DNA of 64,000 bases from positions 62,001 through 126,000 of the forward strand of contig NZ_CP024046.1 of assembly GCF_003430825.1 (NCBI RefSeq), in the 5' to 3' direction. The notes below the pieces were generated by a model. That model had not been told where the DNA came from and did no database searches. It saw only the letters and a list, made by a program, of their open reading frames with translations. The position numbers were made by a program, and so were the translations under genes. This document shows, one piece after another, positions 2,387 through 13,288 of this stretch; position 1 is the first letter of the stretch; every line of letters starts with the position of its first letter. This stretch comes from Natrarchaeobaculum sulfurireducens (lineage in GTDB: Archaea; Halobacteriota; Halobacteria; Halobacteriales; Natrialbaceae).

Positions 2387-3459
2387 TCAGGGACACAGAT
2401 AATTCCAGATGTTTGGTTCGTTGATCTGTGAGATTCCTCTCGCTAGATGTTGTTTCAGCCTCGGGAGATCTGGGATCAACCGATGTTTGAACCACTCGTT
2501 TAGCTGATCCCAGCAACCTTCGACAGGGTTCAGCTCGGGGAGTTTCGACGGAAAGTACCACACTTCGAGGCCGTCTCCACGCACGCAGGCGACCGAACTG
2601 TCTCCGACAGTTTCGGTCGCCCGCTCACCACTAACGTGTTCCCACAGATCCCGTGCATAGAAGTACCCTGCCCGGTCAAGAAATACCACTAACTCCTCCC
2701 CAAACTTCTCTTTCAACGCTTCTAACAGCCGAATCCCGTGAAATCTGTTCAGGTTTTCTTCCGTCCAGAAGTAGAAGCTGTCACCGTCGTCGGTGACAGC
2801 GCCGAGCACTGTCACCTTCTTCCAAGAGTTCGAGGTCTCTATTGTTGGATTCGAGCCAATCGGATACCACCCACGTCGTTGAACCGTCCCGACTCGCTTG
2901 GTGAACTGATCAACGACAACGACAGTCTTCTCGCTCAGTTCGGGCCGTTTTTTTCGACTGTCTCTTTAAATTCGGCTTCTTCTTCGGGATCGGCTTCGTG
3001 ATTGCGAGGCCGCGCTGTCCGCCAGGACAGCCCGGCCTCGTGCAAGAGATATCGCGCGTGGCTTTCGGTGTACTCAACGTCGAACTCTTCTTTGACGTAG
3101 TGAAGCAGAAGCTTTGGCGACCACGCTTGGTGCTCGTAGCCAAGTTCGGTCGGTGGCTGCTGGAGAGCTTCTTCCAACTGCTCGCGTTCGTCAGCGGTGA
3201 GTTTCGATGGTCCACCCGGTCGAGGGTCGTCGTAGGGTGCCTGCTCGATCGGTTCTTCCTCGAACCGATCGAGCCAGTTACGGATGGTTTTCTCGACAAC
3301 CCCGTGACGTTCAGCCAGCGTCGCGATCTTGTCGCCCTGCTTGCGGCCGATCGCCGCAAGCACTCGCTCCCGTGGAATCTCTCCCTCTGTCTGCTCTCGA
3401 AGCTCGTGAAGCTCTTCTATAGAGATATCGTCCAGACGACCCATCACATCTCGTTGCAT
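2387..3459 (-). CDS. IS630 transposase, two frames joined by a likely -1 frameshift
   Basis: The first frame (3459 to stop 2935, 174 residues) carries the N-terminal helix-turn-helix and linker. The second frame (to 2387) carries the DDE catalytic domain: VVVVDQF, VVFLDRAG and LNPVEGCWD supply the D, D and E. The frames overlap at a run of seven A residues; reading AAA AAC in frame 0 and slipping back one base at A-AAA-AAC gives an uninterrupted product of about 357 residues. Such frameshifting is known in the IS630 family. A simple inactivating frameshift is the alternative, but the canonical slippery heptamer and the absence of other lesions favour a programmed event. Confidence 0.85.
2947..2953 (-). 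promoter_or_regulatory. Slippery heptamer A-AAA-AAC for -1 frameshift
   Basis: On the minus strand the zero-frame codons are GAA AAA AAC, forming X-XXY-YYZ = A-AAA-AAC. A -1 slip here leads straight into the DDE frame, and the zero frame stops four codons later at 2937-2935. Confidence 0.65.
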
Positions 3460-3535
3460 TCAGACCGGTAAATCACTTTGGACATCACTATGACTGCTTG
3501 TACATACAATTACTCCAGTATCGATAGCGGTGAAT

Positions 3536-3704
3536 CGTCTCGGGTCAAGTGGTTCGAGAATCAAAGATTCTCGTCATTACGAGAGAGCGAGGCTCTCTCG
3601 AACGATCCCGAGGCTTCCTGCTTCGATGGTGCGCTTTGCAGACACCGAAGTGGTGTCCGTAGGGAGCGCAGTCTCCACAGGCGTCCCTTCGGGCCATCCC
3701 GGCG
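3536..3704 (-). pseudogene. tnpB 3' end with right-end hairpins (IS200/IS605 relic)
   Basis: Reading leftward, the minus strand encodes the typical C-terminus of haloarchaeal TnpB (GTPVETALPTDT then KRTIEAGS) and stops near 3580. It is followed by two adjacent hairpins (CGAGAGAGCGAGGCTCTCTCG is one, GAGAATCAAAGATTCTC the other) and a TTCGAACCACTTGACCC-like end that recurs at 53.7 kb. The upstream part of the gene is missing; it is cut by the IS6 end at 3705. TnpB is the RNA-guided nuclease of these elements; here only the tail remains. Confidence 0.7.
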
Positions 3705-3726
3705 GTGTTCAGATAAGGTTCAAGAA

Positions 3727-4291
3727 TTGACCTCCTCCCGCGCCTGAAGACGCGGGAATCCGCGAAGCGGAGTTCAAGGTTGCGCGTTTCCTCGGTGGCG
3801 AAGTACGCTTTCGCGTCCCACGTCGACGGTCGCCGCCCAGTTGTGACCAAGGACGTGCGTTACAGCGCGTATAGCCCAGCCAAACGGGCCTTCCGTCCGA
3901 CGCGCGGTCGGCGTTTCGACGCGACGAATACCGCTCGTCGCTCCACGGCGGGGTATTCAGCCCGCACGGTACCACGATTCGCGTCGGCCAAGCCGTTACG
4001 TCGTGGACTGGTTCAGTCGGATTTGTTACCACGCGAGAAGTCACGGCGAAGCCGTGGTGTCGTCAAAGACGGCGTTTCTCAACGTGGGAACTCCGGTACT
4101 GCCGTCTACGGAACACAGCCTGATCAAGCTTACGCGCCTATCCACGGCCTGTAGTAGTTAGGAGAAGTTCTGAAAATAGGCTCGAGAGACACAGTTGATA
4201 GAAGCGTGATAGAAACGAATACTGTATGTGGCCACCTTCATTTCTTCTCTTCATTACTAAAGGCCGTGGCATTGCGCTACTCCGCCTGTAA
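3727..4291 (-). mobile_element. IS200/IS605-like relic inserted in IS6 copy A
   Basis: This sequence interrupts the IS6 left end. It opens with a right-end-like hairpin (CCTCCTCCCGCGCCTGAAGACGCGGG, split around GAAGA) and then about 400 bp with overlapping short frames but no intact transposase motifs. Its high GC and hairpin suggest the end of a TnpB-type element. The exact borders are estimated by comparison with the uninterrupted copies C and D. Confidence 0.45.
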
Positions 4292-4315
4292 GGCGTGACG
4301 TTTTCTGAGTGATTC

Positions 4316-4940
4316 ATGCCCGAAAACGCACGCCTCACAGGAAGTGTCGGCCAGCTCGACTTGGATTTTGTGGAGCGGGAAGCAACACCGCAACTGTTGA
4401 GGCAGCTCAGTATTCATCTTCACCTTGCTGGGCTCTCGCTTTCGGATACTGTTCGAGTCCTCTAGACTTTCGCTGTTGAACAGGCTCGATCGACCGTTCA
4501 CAACTGGGTTCACAAGGCCGATCTCCAGCCGGAATCCGGATCACGTTGCGGTCGACGAGACGGTGATCCGACTCAACGACGAACAGTACTGGCTGTACAC
4601 TGTCGCTGATCTCGACTCGAACGAATTGCTCCATACGAAGCTCGAACTAACGAGAAACAAGGTTATTGCGAGCAATTTCGTTCGAGAGCTTCGAGAGAAA
4701 CACGACGTCAACGACGCCGTGTTTCTCATCAGTGGTGATCGATTGCTACAGTATGGCTGTGAGCATCACGGCCTTGAGTTCCAGTACGAACGACACGGTG
4801 ACCGGAACAGCGTCGAACGTGTCTTTCGTGATATAAAACGACGAACAATCTTGTTCTCAAACTGCTTCAGCAACGCCAGAGCAACAACTGTCGATCAGTG
4901 ACTCAAATCGTTCGCGTTCGCATGGAACCAGCTTATCTGA
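4316..4940 (+). pseudogene. IS6 transposase, copy A (pseudogene)
   Basis: The protein is a small DDE transposase of the haloarchaeal IS6 group: VDETVIRL, FLISGD and NSVERVFRDIKRR supply the catalytic D, D and E. The copy is broken by an in-frame TAG after codon 49 (DTVRVL-stop), a short deletion near 4535 that shifts the frame, and a premature TGA at 4899-4901 where the other copies read TGG. Confidence 0.8.
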
Positions 4941-5572: not shown

Positions 5573-6337
5573 TCAGCCATATGCAAGCGTTACCCTGATT
5601 TCGCCGGCTTTGTCCCACAGCAGTTTGGGCAATTTTTCCCGGAGATAGTCGCCTTTAAACCGGCTTGTCGGGCCAAATACTCCGAGTGAACCGAGCAGTT
5701 CATCATCGGGCGTGTAGACCGGGACGGCGACGCCGCGTAGGCCGTTCATGTGCTCTTCGTCGTTGATTGCATAGCTACGCTCGCGGATCGTCTCGAGTTC
5801 CGTGAAGAGGTCGTCGGGGTTAGTAATCGTGTTCCGCGTGATCCGCTCGAGGCCACGCTCCTGAATAAACGTTTCGACGCGCTCGATTTCCCACTCTGAA
5901 AGGATGACCTTTCCCGACGCGAGACTGTGCAGGGGTCGGCGCTTGCCGATCATTGTGTCCGAGAGACTGCCATAGCGGTGGACATAGACGCCTTCGAAGT
6001 CCTCCTCGACGATGAACACCGCACGCTCATCGGTCTCTTGACCGAGTTCGAACACTTTCCGCTTGGCAGCGGTGTATCCCCTTTTTCGCGTCCGAGCGGT
6101 CTCGCTTAACTGGAGAAACCGGAATCCGATGTAGTAGCCGCCATTGCGCTCTATCAGGTAGCCAAGATCCGACAAGGTCGTCACGTGCCGGTAAACGGTA
6201 CTTTTTGTTAGCCCCGTCCGCCGCGTTAGTTCCGTGATGCTAAGTCCCTCTTCGTCGCGAACTTTCTCGATGATATCGAAAGTTTTCCGCGTCGTGCTCA
6301 CCCCTGCGGTCGTCTCCTGCTCACCGTTTGTTCCCAT
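5573..6337 (-). CDS. IclR-family transcriptional regulator (module 1)
   Basis: This 254-residue regulator has an N-terminal winged helix (about residues 15-80, with ITELTRRTGLTKSTVYRHV) and a C-terminal IclR effector-binding domain (about 85-250, with RRPLHSLASGK and GLRGVAVPVY). I chose the ATG at 6337; the longer frame would need a TTG start. It is divergent from the TRAP transporter and CoA-ligase genes and probably controls them in response to the imported acid or its CoA ester. A TATA-like box and an 8-bp palindrome TTCCGGAA lie 35-45 nt upstream, so autoregulation is plausible. The effector is unknown. Confidence 0.9.
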   Translation of the reverse strand: MGTNGEQETTAGVSTTRKTFDIIEKVRDEEGLSITELTRRTGLTKSTVYRHVTTLSDLGYLIERNGGYYIGFRFLQLSETARTRKRGYTAAKRKVFELGQETDERAVFIVEEDFEGVYVHRYGSLSDTMIGKRRPLHSLASGKVILSEWEIERVETFIQERGLERITRNTITNPDDLFTELETIRERSYAINDEEHMNGLRGVAVPVYTPDDELLGSLGVFGPTSRFKGDYLREKLPKLLWDKAGEIRVTLAYG

Positions 6338-6367
6338 ACGGAGAGTGTACGGCGGTAGCCCAATCAA

Positions 6368-6384
6368 TGTTCCGGAAAATAAAA
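6368..6384 (-). promoter_or_regulatory. Promoter and possible IclR operator
   Basis: On the minus strand a TATA-like TTTTATTTTC (about 6375-6384) is immediately followed by the palindrome TTCCGGAA (6370-6377), about 35 nt upstream of the IclR start. The location would suit autoregulation. Similarity to the operator-like repeats of the second IclR gene (33.6-33.8 kb) is limited to a GTTCCG core. Confidence 0.4.
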
Positions 6385-6920
6385 CAGCTAGTGCATTATG
6401 TGAAACGACCGTCGGATCCTACGCTTTCGGAGGTGATTTTGTTCCACTAAACGAAACAAGACGTCACTAGAATGGTGAACGGGTCTGTAGTAGCAACCGC
6501 TGGTGTACTATCGTGTCTCCTGAGATCTCCTGTAGGAACACCTGGTTCTAACTTTCAATGCAACCAGCGTTGACGAAGCAACTGACCGTTCTCACAGAGC
6601 CAGACAAAGCCGTCACTGGGAAACGATTCAACAGGGCCTAATGGCTGATATTGTTCCCTGCACGAAGGCCCTCCACGTGAATTCTTCTCGAGAGTTTGCA
6701 TTGACGTCTTTCCGGTTTGTGGGTGTAGACGCCCTCCAATTTGTTGTCACTGAACGAGTTTCAGTCAATAGACGCGCCGATACGTGTGGCCCCGAGAGCA
6801 CGACGTTTTTGCTGGCCGTCGTTGATGGATATCTGAATTCGAGATACAATGCGAACCAAACCGGATAACGGGATAGACGTCGATTACGCTTTTGTTGACT
6901 CCATCACACTGGGGCGGAAC
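6385..6920. other. Long intergenic region between divergent operons
   Basis: About 540 bp with no recognised gene. A 75-residue frame at 6641-6868 has no family resemblance and I do not call it. The region must carry the promoters of both the IclR gene and the TRAP operon; a CGGAAC half-site lies at about 6915-6920 just before the TATA box. Confidence 0.4.
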
Positions 6921-6932
6921 AATTATACTAAT
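6921..6932 (+). promoter_or_regulatory. TATA box of the TRAP operon
   Basis: AATTATACTAAT is centred about 26 nt upstream of the ATG at 6953, the spacing expected for a leaderless haloarchaeal transcript. This supports ATG 6953 over the GTG at 6944. Confidence 0.6.
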
Positions 6933-6952
6933 GGAATTTGTGAGTGTTAGAT

Positions 6953-8056
6953 ATGGATTCAGGAAAAAAGATCACGCAGGTAGGCTTGAGTAGGCGGTCC
7001 TTCCTGGCAGCAGGTGTCGGATCGACGGTGGCATTGGCGGGCTGTCTTGGCAACGGAGAGGAAGACGGCGTGGACGGCAGCGGAAGCGACAATGGTTCCA
7101 GATACGAACGCATCAGCGTTAGCTTCTCCGAGCAGGGTGGTGCGCTGAACGAGGGACGTCTCGACATCGGTGTCGGGACGATGATGAATTTCTCTATCAC
7201 TCCGGGCTGGGTCCAGGAGGCCGTCGCCTCAGTCGACGACTTTCGTATTCTTGACGTGGAAGACGCGACCGCCGATGCTTGGAACGACGATGACACGCTG
7301 TTCATCGAGGATCTTGACACCGACGAACTCGAAGGCGCCGATAACGATCACGTGGACGTTCCCGGCGAGGTCCCGTGCCCGACGTTTGCATACAACTTCG
7401 TCTCTCGAGTGGAACTCGACTACGATGTCGTGTATACGTTCCTCGAGACAATGTGGGACGTGCGTGAAGACCTCGCTGACGAGTTTGGAATCTTTGCGTT
7501 TCACGAGGATCCAGAGTTCTGGGTTCAGAACCACTACGAGGGCATCCCGTTTCACCCCGCTGCAGCGGATTTCTACCAGGACGAACTTGACGTCTGGAGC
7601 GATGAGTTCGAGCGTGCCGACGAATCCGACGACGTACTCGAGGCCGATACGATCAGGATGAAGACCTCCGAGCAGGGGACAACGGGACATGCTGCCAATG
7701 AGGCGCTGGCCGCGGTTATGAACGACCATCTGGACGAGCTGTCGATCGAAGCCCAGACGAGCGATGGATCGGAAGAGAACATTGGAGACATCGCCTCGGA
7801 GAACATCGAAATGGGATTCCTCCAGAACTGGACTGCCCGGGAGTTCCGTGAGGGCGTTGCCCCGTTCGACGACCTCGACTTTGAGATGACACAAGTGTTT
7901 CACTACTACGACCTGCCGTGGTACTTCATTACCAATAACATGGATCTCGAGACGTTGTCCGACATCGAGCCCGATATGGCAGTTTCGCCGACGCCGAGCG
8001 GATCTGGCACTGCACCCGGCCTCGAGCGCGCACTTGAGTACGCCCTGGACGACTAA
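6953..8056 (+). CDS. TAXI-family TRAP solute-binding lipoprotein, halves in swapped order
   Basis: This 367-residue protein has a Tat signal with lipobox (RRSFLAAGVGSTVALAGC, Cys31) and is therefore membrane-anchored outside the cell, where it would capture the substrate for the adjacent permease. Residues 51-212 resemble the second half of TAXI proteins (SFSEQGGALNEGRLDIG, then the closing HPAAADFY). Residues 232-367 resemble the first half (EQGTTGHAANE, SDGSEENIGDIASENIEMG, and terminal SGSGT). The order is thus reversed, consistent with a circular permutation cut in the loop after the GSGT segment. Family assignment rests on these motifs and on the permease next door (6 nt gap). Substrate is probably the carboxylate activated by the downstream ligase. 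Confidence 0.85.
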   Translation: MDSGKKITQVGLSRRSFLAAGVGSTVALAGCLGNGEEDGVDGSGSDNGSRYERISVSFSEQGGALNEGRLDIGVGTMMNFSITPGWVQEAVASVDDFRILDVEDATADAWNDDDTLFIEDLDTDELEGADNDHVDVPGEVPCPTFAYNFVSRVELDYDVVYTFLETMWDVREDLADEFGIFAFHEDPEFWVQNHYEGIPFHPAAADFYQDELDVWSDEFERADESDDVLEADTIRMKTSEQGTTGHAANEALAAVMNDHLDELSIEAQTSDGSEENIGDIASENIEMGFLQNWTAREFREGVAPFDDLDFEMTQVFHYYDLPWYFITNNMDLETLSDIEPDMAVSPTPSGSGTAPGLERALEYALDD

Positions 8057-8062
8057 CGATCG

Positions 8063-10354
8063 ATGTCAACTGTGAGCTCCCGTCTTGGACAGCTAACACG
8101 GTATCGACTGTTAGCTGGCGTCACGTACGGCATGGCGGCGTCGTTTACGATCTTTACGCTCTACTACGCGTTCTTCATCTTGACAAATCTGACAATCGCC
8201 GGTGTCTCCCTTCGGCCGCTGGTTCCGTCGGTACTCGTCTTCTCCGAGCAGGCGGAGTACGTCGTCGTGTTTACCGGCTGGGGATTGGCGGTTTACTACT
8301 TGGACTATGCGCGTCGGCAACTAGATGACCGCCGAGAGCTTGATACCGCGGACGACAACGAGTCGAACCCCAAGAGTCTCGCAGCAGTGTCCGATCAGCT
8401 GTCGGTTCTCGGTGACCAAGGCGATCGTCAACTCATGGATAGGGTTGACGGGTTCAAACGAGCCTACAGCAGGTGCGATCCGTTCGTCGCCATCGCGCTC
8501 GCCTTCCTCTCGCTCGTCACAATGGCCTACATGCTCGGGGAGTTCTCCCGACTAGACGGTGAGGCGTACATCGCTGGCTTCACCACGATGGACCATGTCA
8601 TCGGCGCAGCACTCATCGTCCTCGTCACCGACGCGACGCGGCGAGCGTTCGGCTGGATTATTGCTTCCGTAGCAGTCTTCGCGATCATCTACTCCCACGA
8701 GTCGGTCAGCACACTTCCGGTTCTTCCTGAGTTGCTCGCTTGGTCTGGCGAAGACCTAACGGGTATCGTCGAAGAGGCTGCCCTCGGAGTTCAGTCCGGC
8801 ATCTTCGACAGTACCATCATGGGAATCGGCGCGACGTGGGTCGCGATCTTCATCATGTTCGCCGGAATTGCCAAGTCCTACGGACTCATGGAATTCATCC
8901 GGGAAGTCGGAACAGAACTGGGTTCTACGCTTCGAACCGGCGTCGTCCAAATTGCGGTCGTCTCGAGTATGATCATGGGCTCGATCACCGGAAGCGCGGC
9001 CGCGAACACTGCGACGACCGGAAGTTTCACAATCCCCATGATCAAGGACCAAGGCGTTCGCGATGACTTCGCGGCGTCGATCGAAGCCGTCGCTTCCGCT
9101 GGTGGCCAGATGCTCCCACCAGTGATGGGTGTCGCAGCGTTCCTCATGGCCGACATTGTTGGCGTCCCGTACTTGGACATCGTTCAGGCCGGCGTAATTC
9201 CAGCAATGCTGTTTTATGTGAGCGTCTGTGTGGCAGTTCACTTCACGATCCTCAAGTTCGGCTGGACCTCAACCAGCCTCTCGCCGTTCGACTGGCGAGT
9301 TCTTCTTGGCGGAGTCCACTTCGCAATCCCGTTGGCAGTGCTCCTGTACACCCTTATCTACCTCCGCTTTACGCCTTTAACGGCGGGATTCTACACGATC
9401 CTGTCTATCGTGGCGGTCATCTTCGTCCGCAATTACCTTATCGACGTGTTCGAGATCGATCGAGTGGTGCGGTCGAAACTTGGTGCCGGCGACGATGGGA
9501 CCGGCACCGCGACGACCAACGTGTCGGTCGTCACTGCATCTTACCGTTCCGCCATGCGAACGGCTAGACAGAGTATCAATGGACTCAAACAGGGCGGCCT
9601 CGAGATGGCACCACTTGTCGGTGTCCTCGCGGCGATGGGACTGATCGTTGAACTGCTCGAGACGAGTGGACTAACCGGCCGTCTCGGTGCGGGAATCATC
9701 GGCTTTGCAGATGTGACGGTCCTTGGGGTTACGGGCGGACTGGCACTCGTGTTGGTGCTTGCGATGATCGCCAGCATTGCTTTCGGTCTTGGTATGCCGA
9801 CCCCGGCGGCGTACATCTTGGTTGCGTTTCTGATCGCGGATGCGGTGACAGAGATGGCCGTCCCGGAGATTACGACCCACATGTTCGTGTTTTATTTCGC
9901 GATGTTGTCGGCGATCACGCCGCCGGTGGCTATCTCCGTCGCAGTGGGGGCTCGAATCGCTGGGACGAATTTCATGAACGCTTGTGTCCAAGCGTTGCGC
10001 ATCGGTGCACCCGGGTTCGTTATTCCGTTCGCGTTTGTCGCGAACAACAGCTTGATTGAGTGGTCGACGGCGACACTGTACGAGTTCCCGGTCGTCCTCG
10101 CGGGGACTATCGGACTGATCGTTGCGACGGTCGGCTTCGACGGTGCTCGTACTCTCTCTATTCCTGTCCGTGTCTTCTACCTTGTCGTCGGATTCGCTGC
10201 AATGTTCGGCTCGGTCGCAGCCGGCGCCGTCGGAATGGGGATTCAGATCGCTGCAGCGGTGACCATCGCTCTGCTGTTGCTTCGAGCACGGTACCTCGTT
10301 GGCTACGAAGTCGATAGCAGGCGCCCAGACGTTGACGCATCCTCATTCGACTGA
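8063..10354 (+). CDS. TRAP transporter fused permease (4TM/12TM)
   Basis: A 763-residue membrane protein fusing the small DctQ-like and large DctM-like subunits, the form that pairs with TAXI binding proteins. The N-terminal part has several membrane helices and an acidic cytoplasmic loop (about residues 90-130). The large domain shows SITGSAAANTATTGSFTIP (about 310-330) and a second repeat with FGLGMPTPAAYIL (about 575-590), the paired substrate- and sodium-site motifs of DctM. It would import an organic acid driven by an ion gradient. It starts 6 nt after the binding-protein stop and is followed 65 nt later by the CoA ligase, so the three form one uptake-activation unit. Confidence 0.92.
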   Translation: MSTVSSRLGQLTRYRLLAGVTYGMAASFTIFTLYYAFFILTNLTIAGVSLRPLVPSVLVFSEQAEYVVVFTGWGLAVYYLDYARRQLDDRRELDTADDNESNPKSLAAVSDQLSVLGDQGDRQLMDRVDGFKRAYSRCDPFVAIALAFLSLVTMAYMLGEFSRLDGEAYIAGFTTMDHVIGAALIVLVTDATRRAFGWIIASVAVFAIIYSHESVSTLPVLPELLAWSGEDLTGIVEEAALGVQSGIFDSTIMGIGATWVAIFIMFAGIAKSYGLMEFIREVGTELGSTLRTGVVQIAVVSSMIMGSITGSAAANTATTGSFTIPMIKDQGVRDDFAASIEAVASAGGQMLPPVMGVAAFLMADIVGVPYLDIVQAGVIPAMLFYVSVCVAVHFTILKFGWTSTSLSPFDWRVLLGGVHFAIPLAVLLYTLIYLRFTPLTAGFYTILSIVAVIFVRNYLIDVFEIDRVVRSKLGAGDDGTGTATTNVSVVTASYRSAMRTARQSINGLKQGGLEMAPLVGVLAAMGLIVELLETSGLTGRLGAGIIGFADVTVLGVTGGLALVLVLAMIASIAFGLGMPTPAAYILVAFLIADAVTEMAVPEITTHMFVFYFAMLSAITPPVAISVAVGARIAGTNFMNACVQALRIGAPGFVIPFAFVANNSLIEWSTATLYEFPVVLAGTIGLIVATVGFDGARTLSIPVRVFYLVVGFAAMFGSVAAGAVGMGIQIAAAVTIALLLLRARYLVGYEVDSRRPDVDASSFD

Positions 10355-10419: not shown

Positions 10420-11985
10420 ATGGCAAGTCTCATAACTGACGTCGCCGAGACGGTAGAGTCGACTCCGGATTCGCCGGCGATCGTTTTTGACGGTTCTGAA
10501 CAGACTTACAGGCAGTTCTGGCACCGGACTGGACAATTCGCACAGGCGTTGGCCGACCACGGTATCGGCGAGGGCGATCGTGTCGGGATCTACCTCCCGA
10601 ATCTCCCCCAGTTCGTGACGGCCTTCTACGGCACCCTCCGTGCAGGCGGCATTGTCGTCCCGATGAATCCGCAGTACAAAGCTCGCGAAATTAGTCATCT
10701 GCTTGGCGATAGCGGCGCAAAGGCTGTCATCTCGCTGGCCGACAACGTTCCCGAGGTTGTCGAAGTCCTCAGTGAAACCGACGTGGAGGAGGTCGTCAGT
10801 GTAGGTGGAGCCGTCGACGGTGCGACTGCGTTCAAGAATTTCCTGGCTGACGAAACGCTCGACGTCGTCGAGCGTGCGGATGACGACGTTGCGGTGCAGC
10901 CATACACCTCAGGGACGACGGGCACGCCGAAAGGAGTCTTGCTCACCCACCGCAACATCCGGTGGACGACGAACGCGAACGCGAACGTCCCTCACGGTGG
11001 GTTTCAGTCCTCTGATCGACTCGTCGGCACGCTCCCACTGTTTCACATCTACGGGATGTCCGTCGTGATGAACGGCGCGATGTACAGCGGCGGCGCCTAT
11101 TACCCTATACCCGAGTGGAACGCCTCCGCGGTGATGGACGTACTTGAGGAGGATGCGATCACTATCATGTTCGGCGTGCCCGCGATGTTCAACGACATGA
11201 TCAACCAGCCCGACGCCGACACGTACGAGTTCGAGGCGCTGCGCTTCGTCAACTCTGGCGGTTCGAGCCTGCCGCTCGAGGTGCTCGAACGCTTCGAGAA
11301 GCTATACGATATCGAACTCTACGAAGGATACGGCCTCACTGAAACAAGTCCGGTCACCCACGCCAACCGTGGCAGCGCCCGTCGGAAGGGTTCGATCGGT
11401 ACCCCCCTTGATGGCGTCGACGCGAAGGTTGTCACCGAACTGTTCGAGACGGTCCCGCGAATTGAGGAGGGACCGATAGACGAAGATGAAGCGGAACTAC
11501 ACGAAATCACGGGAGAGCTCGTTGTGAGCGGACCGAACGTGATGAAGGGGTACTACGGCCTACCCAAGGCCACCGAGGAGGCCTTCACTGAGGAGGACGG
11601 AACAACCTGGTTCCACACTGGCGACATCTGTTACTGGGACGAAGACGACTTCTTTTACGTCGTGGACCGGGAGAAGCACATGATCGTCACCGGCGGCTAC
11701 AACGTCTATCCCCGTGAGATAGAGGAGTTACTGTTCGAACACGAAGCCGTCGCCGACGCCGCAGTCGTCGGTGTACCGGACGAGCGCCGTGGTGAAACGG
11801 TGAAGGCGTTTATCGTTCCGATGCCCGATGCGACGGCTGAACCCGAGGACATCAAAGAGTACTGTCTTGAGCACATTGCAGCGTACAAACACCCGCGCGA
11901 GGTCGAGTTCGTCGAAGAACTTCCGCGGACAACGACCGGCAAGGTTCAGAAGTTCAAGATCAGCGGCGAAGACGCGGACGGCTAG
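10420..11985 (+). CDS. Acyl-CoA synthetase (AMP-forming)
   Basis: A 521-residue ANL-superfamily ligase that activates a carboxylic acid to its CoA thioester with ATP. The P-loop-like motif YTSGTTGTPKGV (about residue 165), the YGLTETSP motif (about 305), the hinge DREKHMIVTGGYNVYPREIE and the C-terminal PRTTTGKVQK with the catalytic Lys are all intact. Length is normal. It follows the TRAP permease and precedes an acyl-CoA dehydrogenase, so it probably acts on the imported acid. Chain length or ring content of the substrate cannot be read from the sequence. Confidence 0.92.
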   Translation: MASLITDVAETVESTPDSPAIVFDGSEQTYRQFWHRTGQFAQALADHGIGEGDRVGIYLPNLPQFVTAFYGTLRAGGIVVPMNPQYKAREISHLLGDSGAKAVISLADNVPEVVEVLSETDVEEVVSVGGAVDGATAFKNFLADETLDVVERADDDVAVQPYTSGTTGTPKGVLLTHRNIRWTTNANANVPHGGFQSSDRLVGTLPLFHIYGMSVVMNGAMYSGGAYYPIPEWNASAVMDVLEEDAITIMFGVPAMFNDMINQPDADTYEFEALRFVNSGGSSLPLEVLERFEKLYDIELYEGYGLTETSPVTHANRGSARRKGSIGTPLDGVDAKVVTELFETVPRIEEGPIDEDEAELHEITGELVVSGPNVMKGYYGLPKATEEAFTEEDGTTWFHTGDICYWDEDDFFYVVDREKHMIVTGGYNVYPREIEELLFEHEAVADAAVVGVPDERRGETVKAFIVPMPDATAEPEDIKEYCLEHIAAYKHPREVEFVEELPRTTTGKVQKFKISGEDADG

Positions 11986-12148: not shown

Positions 12149-13288
12149 ATGGCGTTTAGTCTATCAGCTGAACACGAGGCGATCCGTGATGCCGTTCGCG
12201 AGTTCGGTGAGAACGAAATCGAACCTGTCGCTGAGGAGTACGATAGGGAGGGCACGTATCCCGAGGACCTCCGCAAGACGGCTGCCGAGTATGATTTCGT
12301 CGCGCCGAGCATTCCGCTCGAGTACGGCGGTGCCGGCATGGACAAGCTCTCGAGCACGATCGTCACTGAGGAGCTGTGGCGTGCAGACCCCGGTATCGGC
12401 TCCGCAGTCGGTAGCGCCGGTTTCGGGACGAACATGATCCTCGAGTTCGGCGACGAGTGGATGAAAGAAGAGTGGCTTCCGAAGATTGCCGCCGGTGAGA
12501 CGGCCTCCTGTTCGATGATCTCCGAGCCGGCCCACGGTTCGAACGTTGCAGGCATCGAGACGGTCGCTGAAGCCGACGGCGACGAGTACGTCCTGAACGG
12601 GAACAAGATGTGGATCACGAACGGGACCGTCGCCGACGTCGGCGTCCTGATGGCCAAGACCAGTCCTAGCGAGGGTCACCGCGGCATCACTGCGTTTCTC
12701 GTCGAAATGGATCGGGATGGGGTTTCGACCGAGAAGATCGACAACAAGCTCGGTATCCGCGCCTCGGACCTCGCGGAAGTACTCATCGACGACGTTCGCG
12801 TCCCCGAAGAGAATGTTATTGGCGAGGTCGATGAGGGCTTCTACCAGCTCATGGAGTTCTTCGCAGCCGGGCGCACCAGCGTTGCCGCGCAGGCAGTCGG
12901 CGCGGCCCAGGGAGCCCTCGATGCCGCCGTCGAGTACGCAAACGAGCGCGAGCAGTTCGGCCAGAAAATCGGCGACTTCCAGGCCATTGAACACAAAATC
13001 GCGGAGATGGCGACCAAGGTCGAGGCCGCCCGCTCGCTGACTTACCGTGCTGCGACCCAGGTTGAACAGGAGAACCAGGACGTCGCCGCGAAGTATTCGA
13101 GCATGGCAAAACTGTTCGCCTCCGAGATCTCGGTTGAAGTCGCGGACGAGGGCATCCAGGTCCACGGTGGATCGGGCTACGTGACCGACTATCCTGCCGA
13201 GCGTTACTACCGCGACGCCCGAATCACGAAGATCTACGAGGGTACGAGCGAGATCCAGAAGAACATTATCGCCGACCGCGTTCTCTGA
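12149..13288 (+). CDS. Acyl-CoA dehydrogenase (module 1)
   Basis: A full-length 379-residue flavin-dependent acyl-CoA dehydrogenase catalysing alpha,beta-desaturation, the first oxidative step of beta-oxidation, with electrons passed to an electron-transfer flavoprotein. It has the three-domain layout: helical N-domain, beta-domain with SEPAHGSNVAGI and the FAD-contact MWITNG, and C-terminal helical domain with GGSGYVTDYPAERYYRD and IYEGTSEIQ, whose Glu is the usual catalytic base. It is 163 nt downstream of the ligase and likely has its own promoter. No etf genes are in this module; EtfAB at 31.7-33.5 kb could serve. Confidence 0.92.
   Translation: MAFSLSAEHEAIRDAVREFGENEIEPVAEEYDREGTYPEDLRKTAAEYDFVAPSIPLEYGGAGMDKLSSTIVTEELWRADPGIGSAVGSAGFGTNMILEFGDEWMKEEWLPKIAAGETASCSMISEPAHGSNVAGIETVAEADGDEYVLNGNKMWITNGTVADVGVLMAKTSPSEGHRGITAFLVEMDRDGVSTEKIDNKLGIRASDLAEVLIDDVRVPEENVIGEVDEGFYQLMEFFAAGRTSVAAQAVGAAQGALDAAVEYANEREQFGQKIGDFQAIEHKIAEMATKVEAARSLTYRAATQVEQENQDVAAKYSSMAKLFASEISVEVADEGIQVHGGSGYVTDYPAERYYRDARITKIYEGTSEIQKNIIADRVL

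Follow-up and report, generated by a model that had tools for sequence, protein, structure and literature searches.

A circularly permuted TAXI-type TRAP substrate-binding protein in haloarchaea, and indications of repeated permutation within one operon family

Circular permutation has usually been recognised in pairs of proteins so remote that it can no longer be seen by what route the change came about, how often it happened or in what setting. A gene in the 64,000 nucleotides of Natrarchaeobaculum sulfurireducens DNA that were analysed here (the window) raises the question of whether a TAXI-type substrate-binding protein (SBP) of a TRAP transporter has had its two halves exchanged, and if so by what route, how many times in its family and with what consequence for transport. 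Our findings make it very probable that the gene encodes a lipid-anchored, permuted TAXI-type TRAP SBP that most likely keeps its fold and its role, and that permutation arose in place, in at least three events at two sites.

The open reading frame at 6953-8056 begins with ATG at 6953, has its stop codon at 8054-8056 and encodes 367 amino acids with a Tat lipobox. Along the chain, RRSFLAAG...LAGC is followed by SFSEQGGALNEGRLDIG...IPFHPAAADFY and then by EQGTTGHAANE...GSEENIGDIASENIEMG...SGSGT; the coordinates, the lipobox and the signatures of both halves, which had been described in an earlier note on this DNA, were all re-read at these positions. The protein is 100% identical to WP_117362453.1 of plasmid pAArc-Mg-01 from N. 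sulfurireducens, which the plasmid record names merely 'substrate-binding domain-containing protein'. Its parts and its neighbours are listed in Table 1.

Table 1. Parts of the permuted SBP gene and its neighbours in the window
Feature	Coordinates	Strand	Evidence
Tat signal peptide and lipobox (RRSFLAAGVGSTVALAGC; Cys is residue 31)	6953..7045	+	direct reading; weak TAT_signal matches; aligned in relatives
Flexible tether from lipid anchor to folded part	7046..7102	+	pLDDT <50 at model residues 1-18; varies among relatives
TAXI C-terminal part (residues 51-218), now first	7103..7606	+	TIGR02122 positions 176-318; BLAST to C part of standard homologues
Linker from old C-terminus to old N-terminus (residues ~219-232)	7607..7648	+	aligns with standard-homologue C-termini and tethers
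TAXI N-terminal part (residues 233-367), now last, with SGSGT	7649..8053	+	TIGR02122 24-139; PF16868 2-125; BLAST
Fused TRAP permease (TIGR02123)	8063..10354	+	397 bits, above cut-off; conserved downstream neighbour
AMP-binding acyl-CoA synthetase	10420..11985	+	plasmid annotation; synteny kept at most of the clade's loci
Acyl-CoA dehydrogenase	12149..13288	+	plasmid annotation; syntenic
IclR-family regulator, divergent	5573..6367	-	PF01614 and PF09339; syntenic

The TAXI profile TIGR02122 (320 positions) matches the window protein solely as two swapped pieces, profile positions 176-318 falling in the first half of the protein and 24-139 in the second (E=2e-17), in keeping with the exchange of halves that the earlier note had described. 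A collinear match to a TAXI profile, which that note had named as evidence against its own claim, was looked for and none was found. We attribute the score of 63.0 bits, below the curated cut-off of 84.35 bits, to the permuted chain; the standard-order sister L017 scores just 72 bits and also lies below the cut-off. PF16868 matches above its cut-off (E=1e-14), again in two stretches, with residues 237-355 aligned to the start of the profile (2-125 of 289). Each of the three standard-order homologues that were scanned with TIGR02122 gave one collinear match reaching position 320. At 16 standard-order loci (L017-L032) both halves match the window protein in swapped order with BLASTP E values of 1e-50 to 1e-81, which is far beyond chance. 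A search of PDB sequences with the single window protein returned nothing relevant, and profiles were compared with the solved TAXI structures: the standard-family profile is collinear with them (e.g. 1us4, 8s4j, 9ibp), and the profiles of two permuted groups, CP1 (the window type) and CP2 (described below), each match 1us4 as swapped pieces. Because the profile pieces are swapped in the permuted groups and collinear in the standard homologues, the swapped order is truly real. BLAST of the parts, the order table and the alignment show both segments to be homologous to the parent, their order to be exchanged and the length to be kept, and the SGSGT and PFHP motifs are retained in the alignment. 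In sequence terms, the window protein is best described as a permuted derivative of the TAXI family rather than as a regular member. Circular permutation of a TAXI-type receptor, the central proposal of the earlier note, is supported by these profile matches and homologues of both orders, and by the phylogeny, synteny and confident predicted structure that are presented below.

Relatives were surveyed over 844 genome searches, with some genomes searched repeatedly; a single contig scan gave three relatives only and the survey was therefore based on the genome searches, bacterial TAXI proteins being outside the survey for permutation. The CP1 arrangement (order C-N1-N2) was found in the window genome and, as the earlier note had suggested looking for, in five other haloarchaeal genomes (G077, G116, G166, G408 and G351). 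Four of these belong to Natrialbaceae, with proteins 77-84% identical to that of the window and synteny conserved in all three that were checked; the fifth, G351, is a distant haloarchaeon of another family whose protein has the CP1 order at ~54% identity. A second arrangement, CP2 (order N2-C-N1), occupies the same operon slot in ten genomes and has its break at the hinge. Its chain starts with N2 (window residues 328-367), continues with the C part, a Gly/Ser-rich linker and N1, and comes to its stop just past N1's long strand (...HFYDLPWFFIADGGN). Both the CP2 type and the independent permutation at the CP1 site in the distant haloarchaeon are new beyond the earlier note. The standard order is kept in many other haloarchaea, including Halovenus carboxidivorans (L017 = L035), the halves of whose protein are 64-68% identical to those of the window protein and are its nearest standard homologues. 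Families f9 and f4 showed the standard order alone among the matches listed. At one locus (L073 3510-4043, genome G120) the C part of a standard-order gene is split over two reading frames, perhaps by a frameshift or a sequencing error.

AlphaFold2 gave confident models of the window protein (pLDDT 90.9, pTM 0.86) and of a CP2 protein (pLDDT 91.2, pTM 0.87), and since the underlying alignments held half-length rows from standard-order relatives these models are informed by the family fold rather than independent of it. After rotation, the secondary structures of the CP1 and CP2 models agree at 96% of 311 aligned positions, as against at best 44% unrotated. Foldseek, which keeps the chain order, found for CP1 matches with TM ~0.3 and no TAXI chain among the best 50 listed, and for CP2 one TAXI chain among the matches listed (9ibp, TM 0.46-0.48 over 226 columns). 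For both permuted models order-dependent structure comparison returned two-lobe binding proteins as weak matches, with OpuAC chains top or tied, and not the other kind of fold that the earlier note had said would count against it. Such weak matches are expected for a permuted chain; they prove nothing in themselves, and we do not read them as pointing to another fold.

The window model contains two long strands, at residues 139-152 and 312-327, that we take to form the hinge, as in a type II binding protein. Read from these strands, the standard chain would run lobe 1-2-1, the CP1 chain lobe 2-1-2 and the CP2 chain lobe 2-1, with one covalent crossover. In CP1, lobe 1 would become the continuous middle domain and lobe 2 the split one, and on this lobe order the lipid tether would move from lobe 1 to lobe 2. 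The model places the new termini between the helix that follows the GSGT motif and the next strand, apparently within lobe 2. The earlier note had put a linker near residues 213-232 and the new termini in the loop between the lobes; the linker is confirmed, though nearer residues 219-232, and the position of the termini has to be revised.

The linkers contain a possible record of how the chain was rejoined, for they resemble the C-terminus of a standard protein (...WSDEFERADE) with the final stretch of a standard lipoprotein tether attached to it. The CP2 linker GSGGSGETTVRMRTS (L008) resembles the tether GDGGSGETTVRMRTS of L021, and the CP1 linker ESVENDTIRMKT (L006) resembles the tether ESVQNVDTIRMKT of L017, these all being short stretches of low complexity. 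Permutation probably occurred at the gene's existing position within a standard operon, most likely when the mature part was duplicated in tandem and in frame; the inner signal peptide would then have been lost and the redundant outer ends trimmed, leaving the tether as the linker between the old termini. A permutation-by-duplication model of this kind has been described (PMC3320104). Tandem duplication followed by truncation was also the route proposed in the earlier note: the linker sequences fit it, but no intermediate carrying any part twice was found among the ORFs of the fetched loci, and the step keeps the standing of a proposal. The missing intermediate lends some weight to fission and fusion, in which half-genes are re-fused in the other order, or to a cut-and-paste event, a possible route that we nevertheless regard as considerably the less probable one. 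Apart from one probable frameshift, the fetched loci showed no separate half-genes, and the joint retains an apparent lipoprotein tether between the old ends, a remnant to be expected if a duplicated gene lost its inner signal peptide, although re-fusion could leave one too. We therefore prefer tandem duplication as the likely route. The layout of a secreted lipoprotein, with its cleaved signal and flexible tether, may ease permutation, because the tether is a ready-made linker.

For an estimate of the number of events, the SBPs were rotated into one common order before a tree was built. This tree contains three changes of arrangement, each forced by well-supported branches. The permease, which is not permuted, provides an independent data set, the groups having been set by chain order before any tree, and its tree has the same three origins: CP2 forms a single clade, the main CP1 clade has the standard-order operon of Halovenus as its sister, and G351 lies elsewhere. 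In approximately unbiased (AU) tests, for which the exact subsets were picked after the first tree had been seen, a single CP1 clade was rejected with the SBP tree (p=1.6e-6) and with the permease tree (p=5e-4), as were CP1 and CP2 together (SBP, p=9e-77) and the main CP1 clade with CP2 (permease, p=3e-82). The third origin is represented by one genome only, G351. Three independent permutations in one operon family are the most economical reading of these sequences. Change counts by themselves cannot separate gain from loss, and it is conceivable that CP1, CP2 and G351 descend from one ancient permutation or from a duplicated ancestor through different losses and reversions; the C-to-N joint is of the same kind in CP1 and CP2, and the Halovenus standard-order sister of CP1 has an unusual and slightly longer loop (EPTGGN; L017 1490-1520) exactly at the CP1 break site. 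We consider this improbable: the break points of CP1 and CP2 differ, each permuted clade is nested among standard-order genes in both the SBP and permease trees with one-clade trees rejected, a search of the fetched loci found no duplicated gene, and common descent from a permuted ancestor would require the exact standard order to have been restored several times. With three separate events as the preferred reading, the TAXI SBP family is probably a natural hot-spot of permutation, in which three events at two sites have given rise to three connectivities, all still working with a permease of the same kind.

The genetic setting of the SBP has changed little. A divergent IclR gene, the SBP, the fused permease, acyl-CoA synthetase and acyl-CoA dehydrogenase are common to the Natrialbaceae CP1 loci, the CP2 loci and many standard genes; the TRAP membrane subunit is co-encoded, the permease following the SBP in the neighbourhoods fetched. 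At the G351 locus the SBP-permease pair was the only part of this operon to be found. The plasmid record has genes for thiolase, hydroxyacyl-CoA dehydrogenase and enoyl-CoA hydratase farther along. In pairwise comparisons dN/dS ranges over 0.05-0.18 in the main CP1 clade and 0.09-0.22 in CP2, values that are rough in the comparisons with the window gene, where dS is near saturation. Gene order and family membership suggest an unchanged role, in which the protein captures a carboxylate outside the cell and passes it to the permease. With a short linker connecting the old termini and the new ones opening a loop in lobe 2, the permuted protein most likely still folds as a normal two-lobe clamshell; the carboxylate would be bound between the lobes and handed to the co-encoded fused permease. 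The neighbouring acyl-CoA enzyme genes suggest that the substrate is an organic acid which, once imported, would be activated to its CoA thioester by the synthetase and degraded by enzymes of the beta-oxidation type. That permutation has recurred in one family hints at an advantage, and the lipid anchor would sit on the other lobe, so that selection for a new role (hinge dynamics, a changed ligand or sensing) in a protein that is no longer a classical transport receptor deserves mention. There is little to recommend it given that the same permease gene still follows the SBP gene immediately in the same operon, that SGSGT and PFHP are kept and that purifying selection acts across the gene.

The unusual order and the presence of an IS6 transposase near the gene on its plasmid are scarcely enough to make misassembly, a chimeric join of two gene fragments or a pseudogene in decay credible, and we reject them because the order recurs in the four other Natrialbaceae genomes, with synteny conserved in the three that were checked, and the joined gene is under selection throughout, while its total length is kept and its model is confident.

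Solved TAXI-family TRAP SBPs (TIGR02122) include 1us4/1us5, 8s4j, 9ibo, 9ibp, 8u79 and 9oz4. The window protein resembles the family in its homology along both halves, its predicted elements, the adjoining fused TRAP permease and the GSGT and PFHP motifs; it differs in its swapped parts, its new termini in lobe 2, an anchor that would lie on the other lobe and its score of 63 rather than 84.35 bits. The earlier note knew of no described case of such a permutation, and in the open-access literature we found no report of permutation in TRAP or TAXI proteins, nor of any orthologous family with multiple recent events. Permutation is known, however, between remote ABC-type binding proteins: 2b4l (OpuAC, glycine betaine-binding), 1r9l and 1sw1 (ProX) and molybdate-binding proteins are related by natural circular permutation, with less than 24% identity in any pair (CPSARST, PMC2395249). 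Those too are two-lobe binding proteins linked by natural permutation, whereas the permuted and unpermuted TAXI proteins are ~54-68% identical, belong to orthologous operons of TRAP rather than ABC type and record three events. The route of tandem duplication and trimming is the one proposed for saposin/swaposin and for DNA methyltransferases (PMC3320104); unlike those cases, ours concerns repeated events in one orthologous secreted lipoprotein, with no duplicated intermediate found. The individual parts are familiar; what is unfamiliar is a recent permutation that has recurred at two sites within the operon.

The existence of close permuted and unpermuted forms in the same operon makes the route of permutation and the tolerated sites directly testable, together with the effect of connectivity and anchor position on SBP dynamics and on docking to the permease. 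This is a rare natural experiment in protein rewiring, in which a chain has apparently been rejoined at least three times, in two places, while its shape and its place in the operon seem to have been kept. It also reveals a blind spot in annotation by collinear profiles, which drops the TAXI name for permuted proteins.

Other features of these neighbourhoods may be recorded. At window 3201-4901, upstream of the IclR gene, the plasmid record has an HNH endonuclease (~3201-3833, - strand) and an IS6-family transposase (~4305-4901, + strand), giving the operon mobile surroundings. Window positions 6368-6952 are without the divergent acyl-CoA dehydrogenase-like gene that is present between the IclR and SBP genes in syntenic loci. 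In G352 a standard-order SBP-permease pair is accompanied by a second SBP gene several kb downstream (L061 3329-10924), and in G064, a member of the window's genus, two tandem standard-order SBP-permease units occupy the operon slot (L069 3256-7428).
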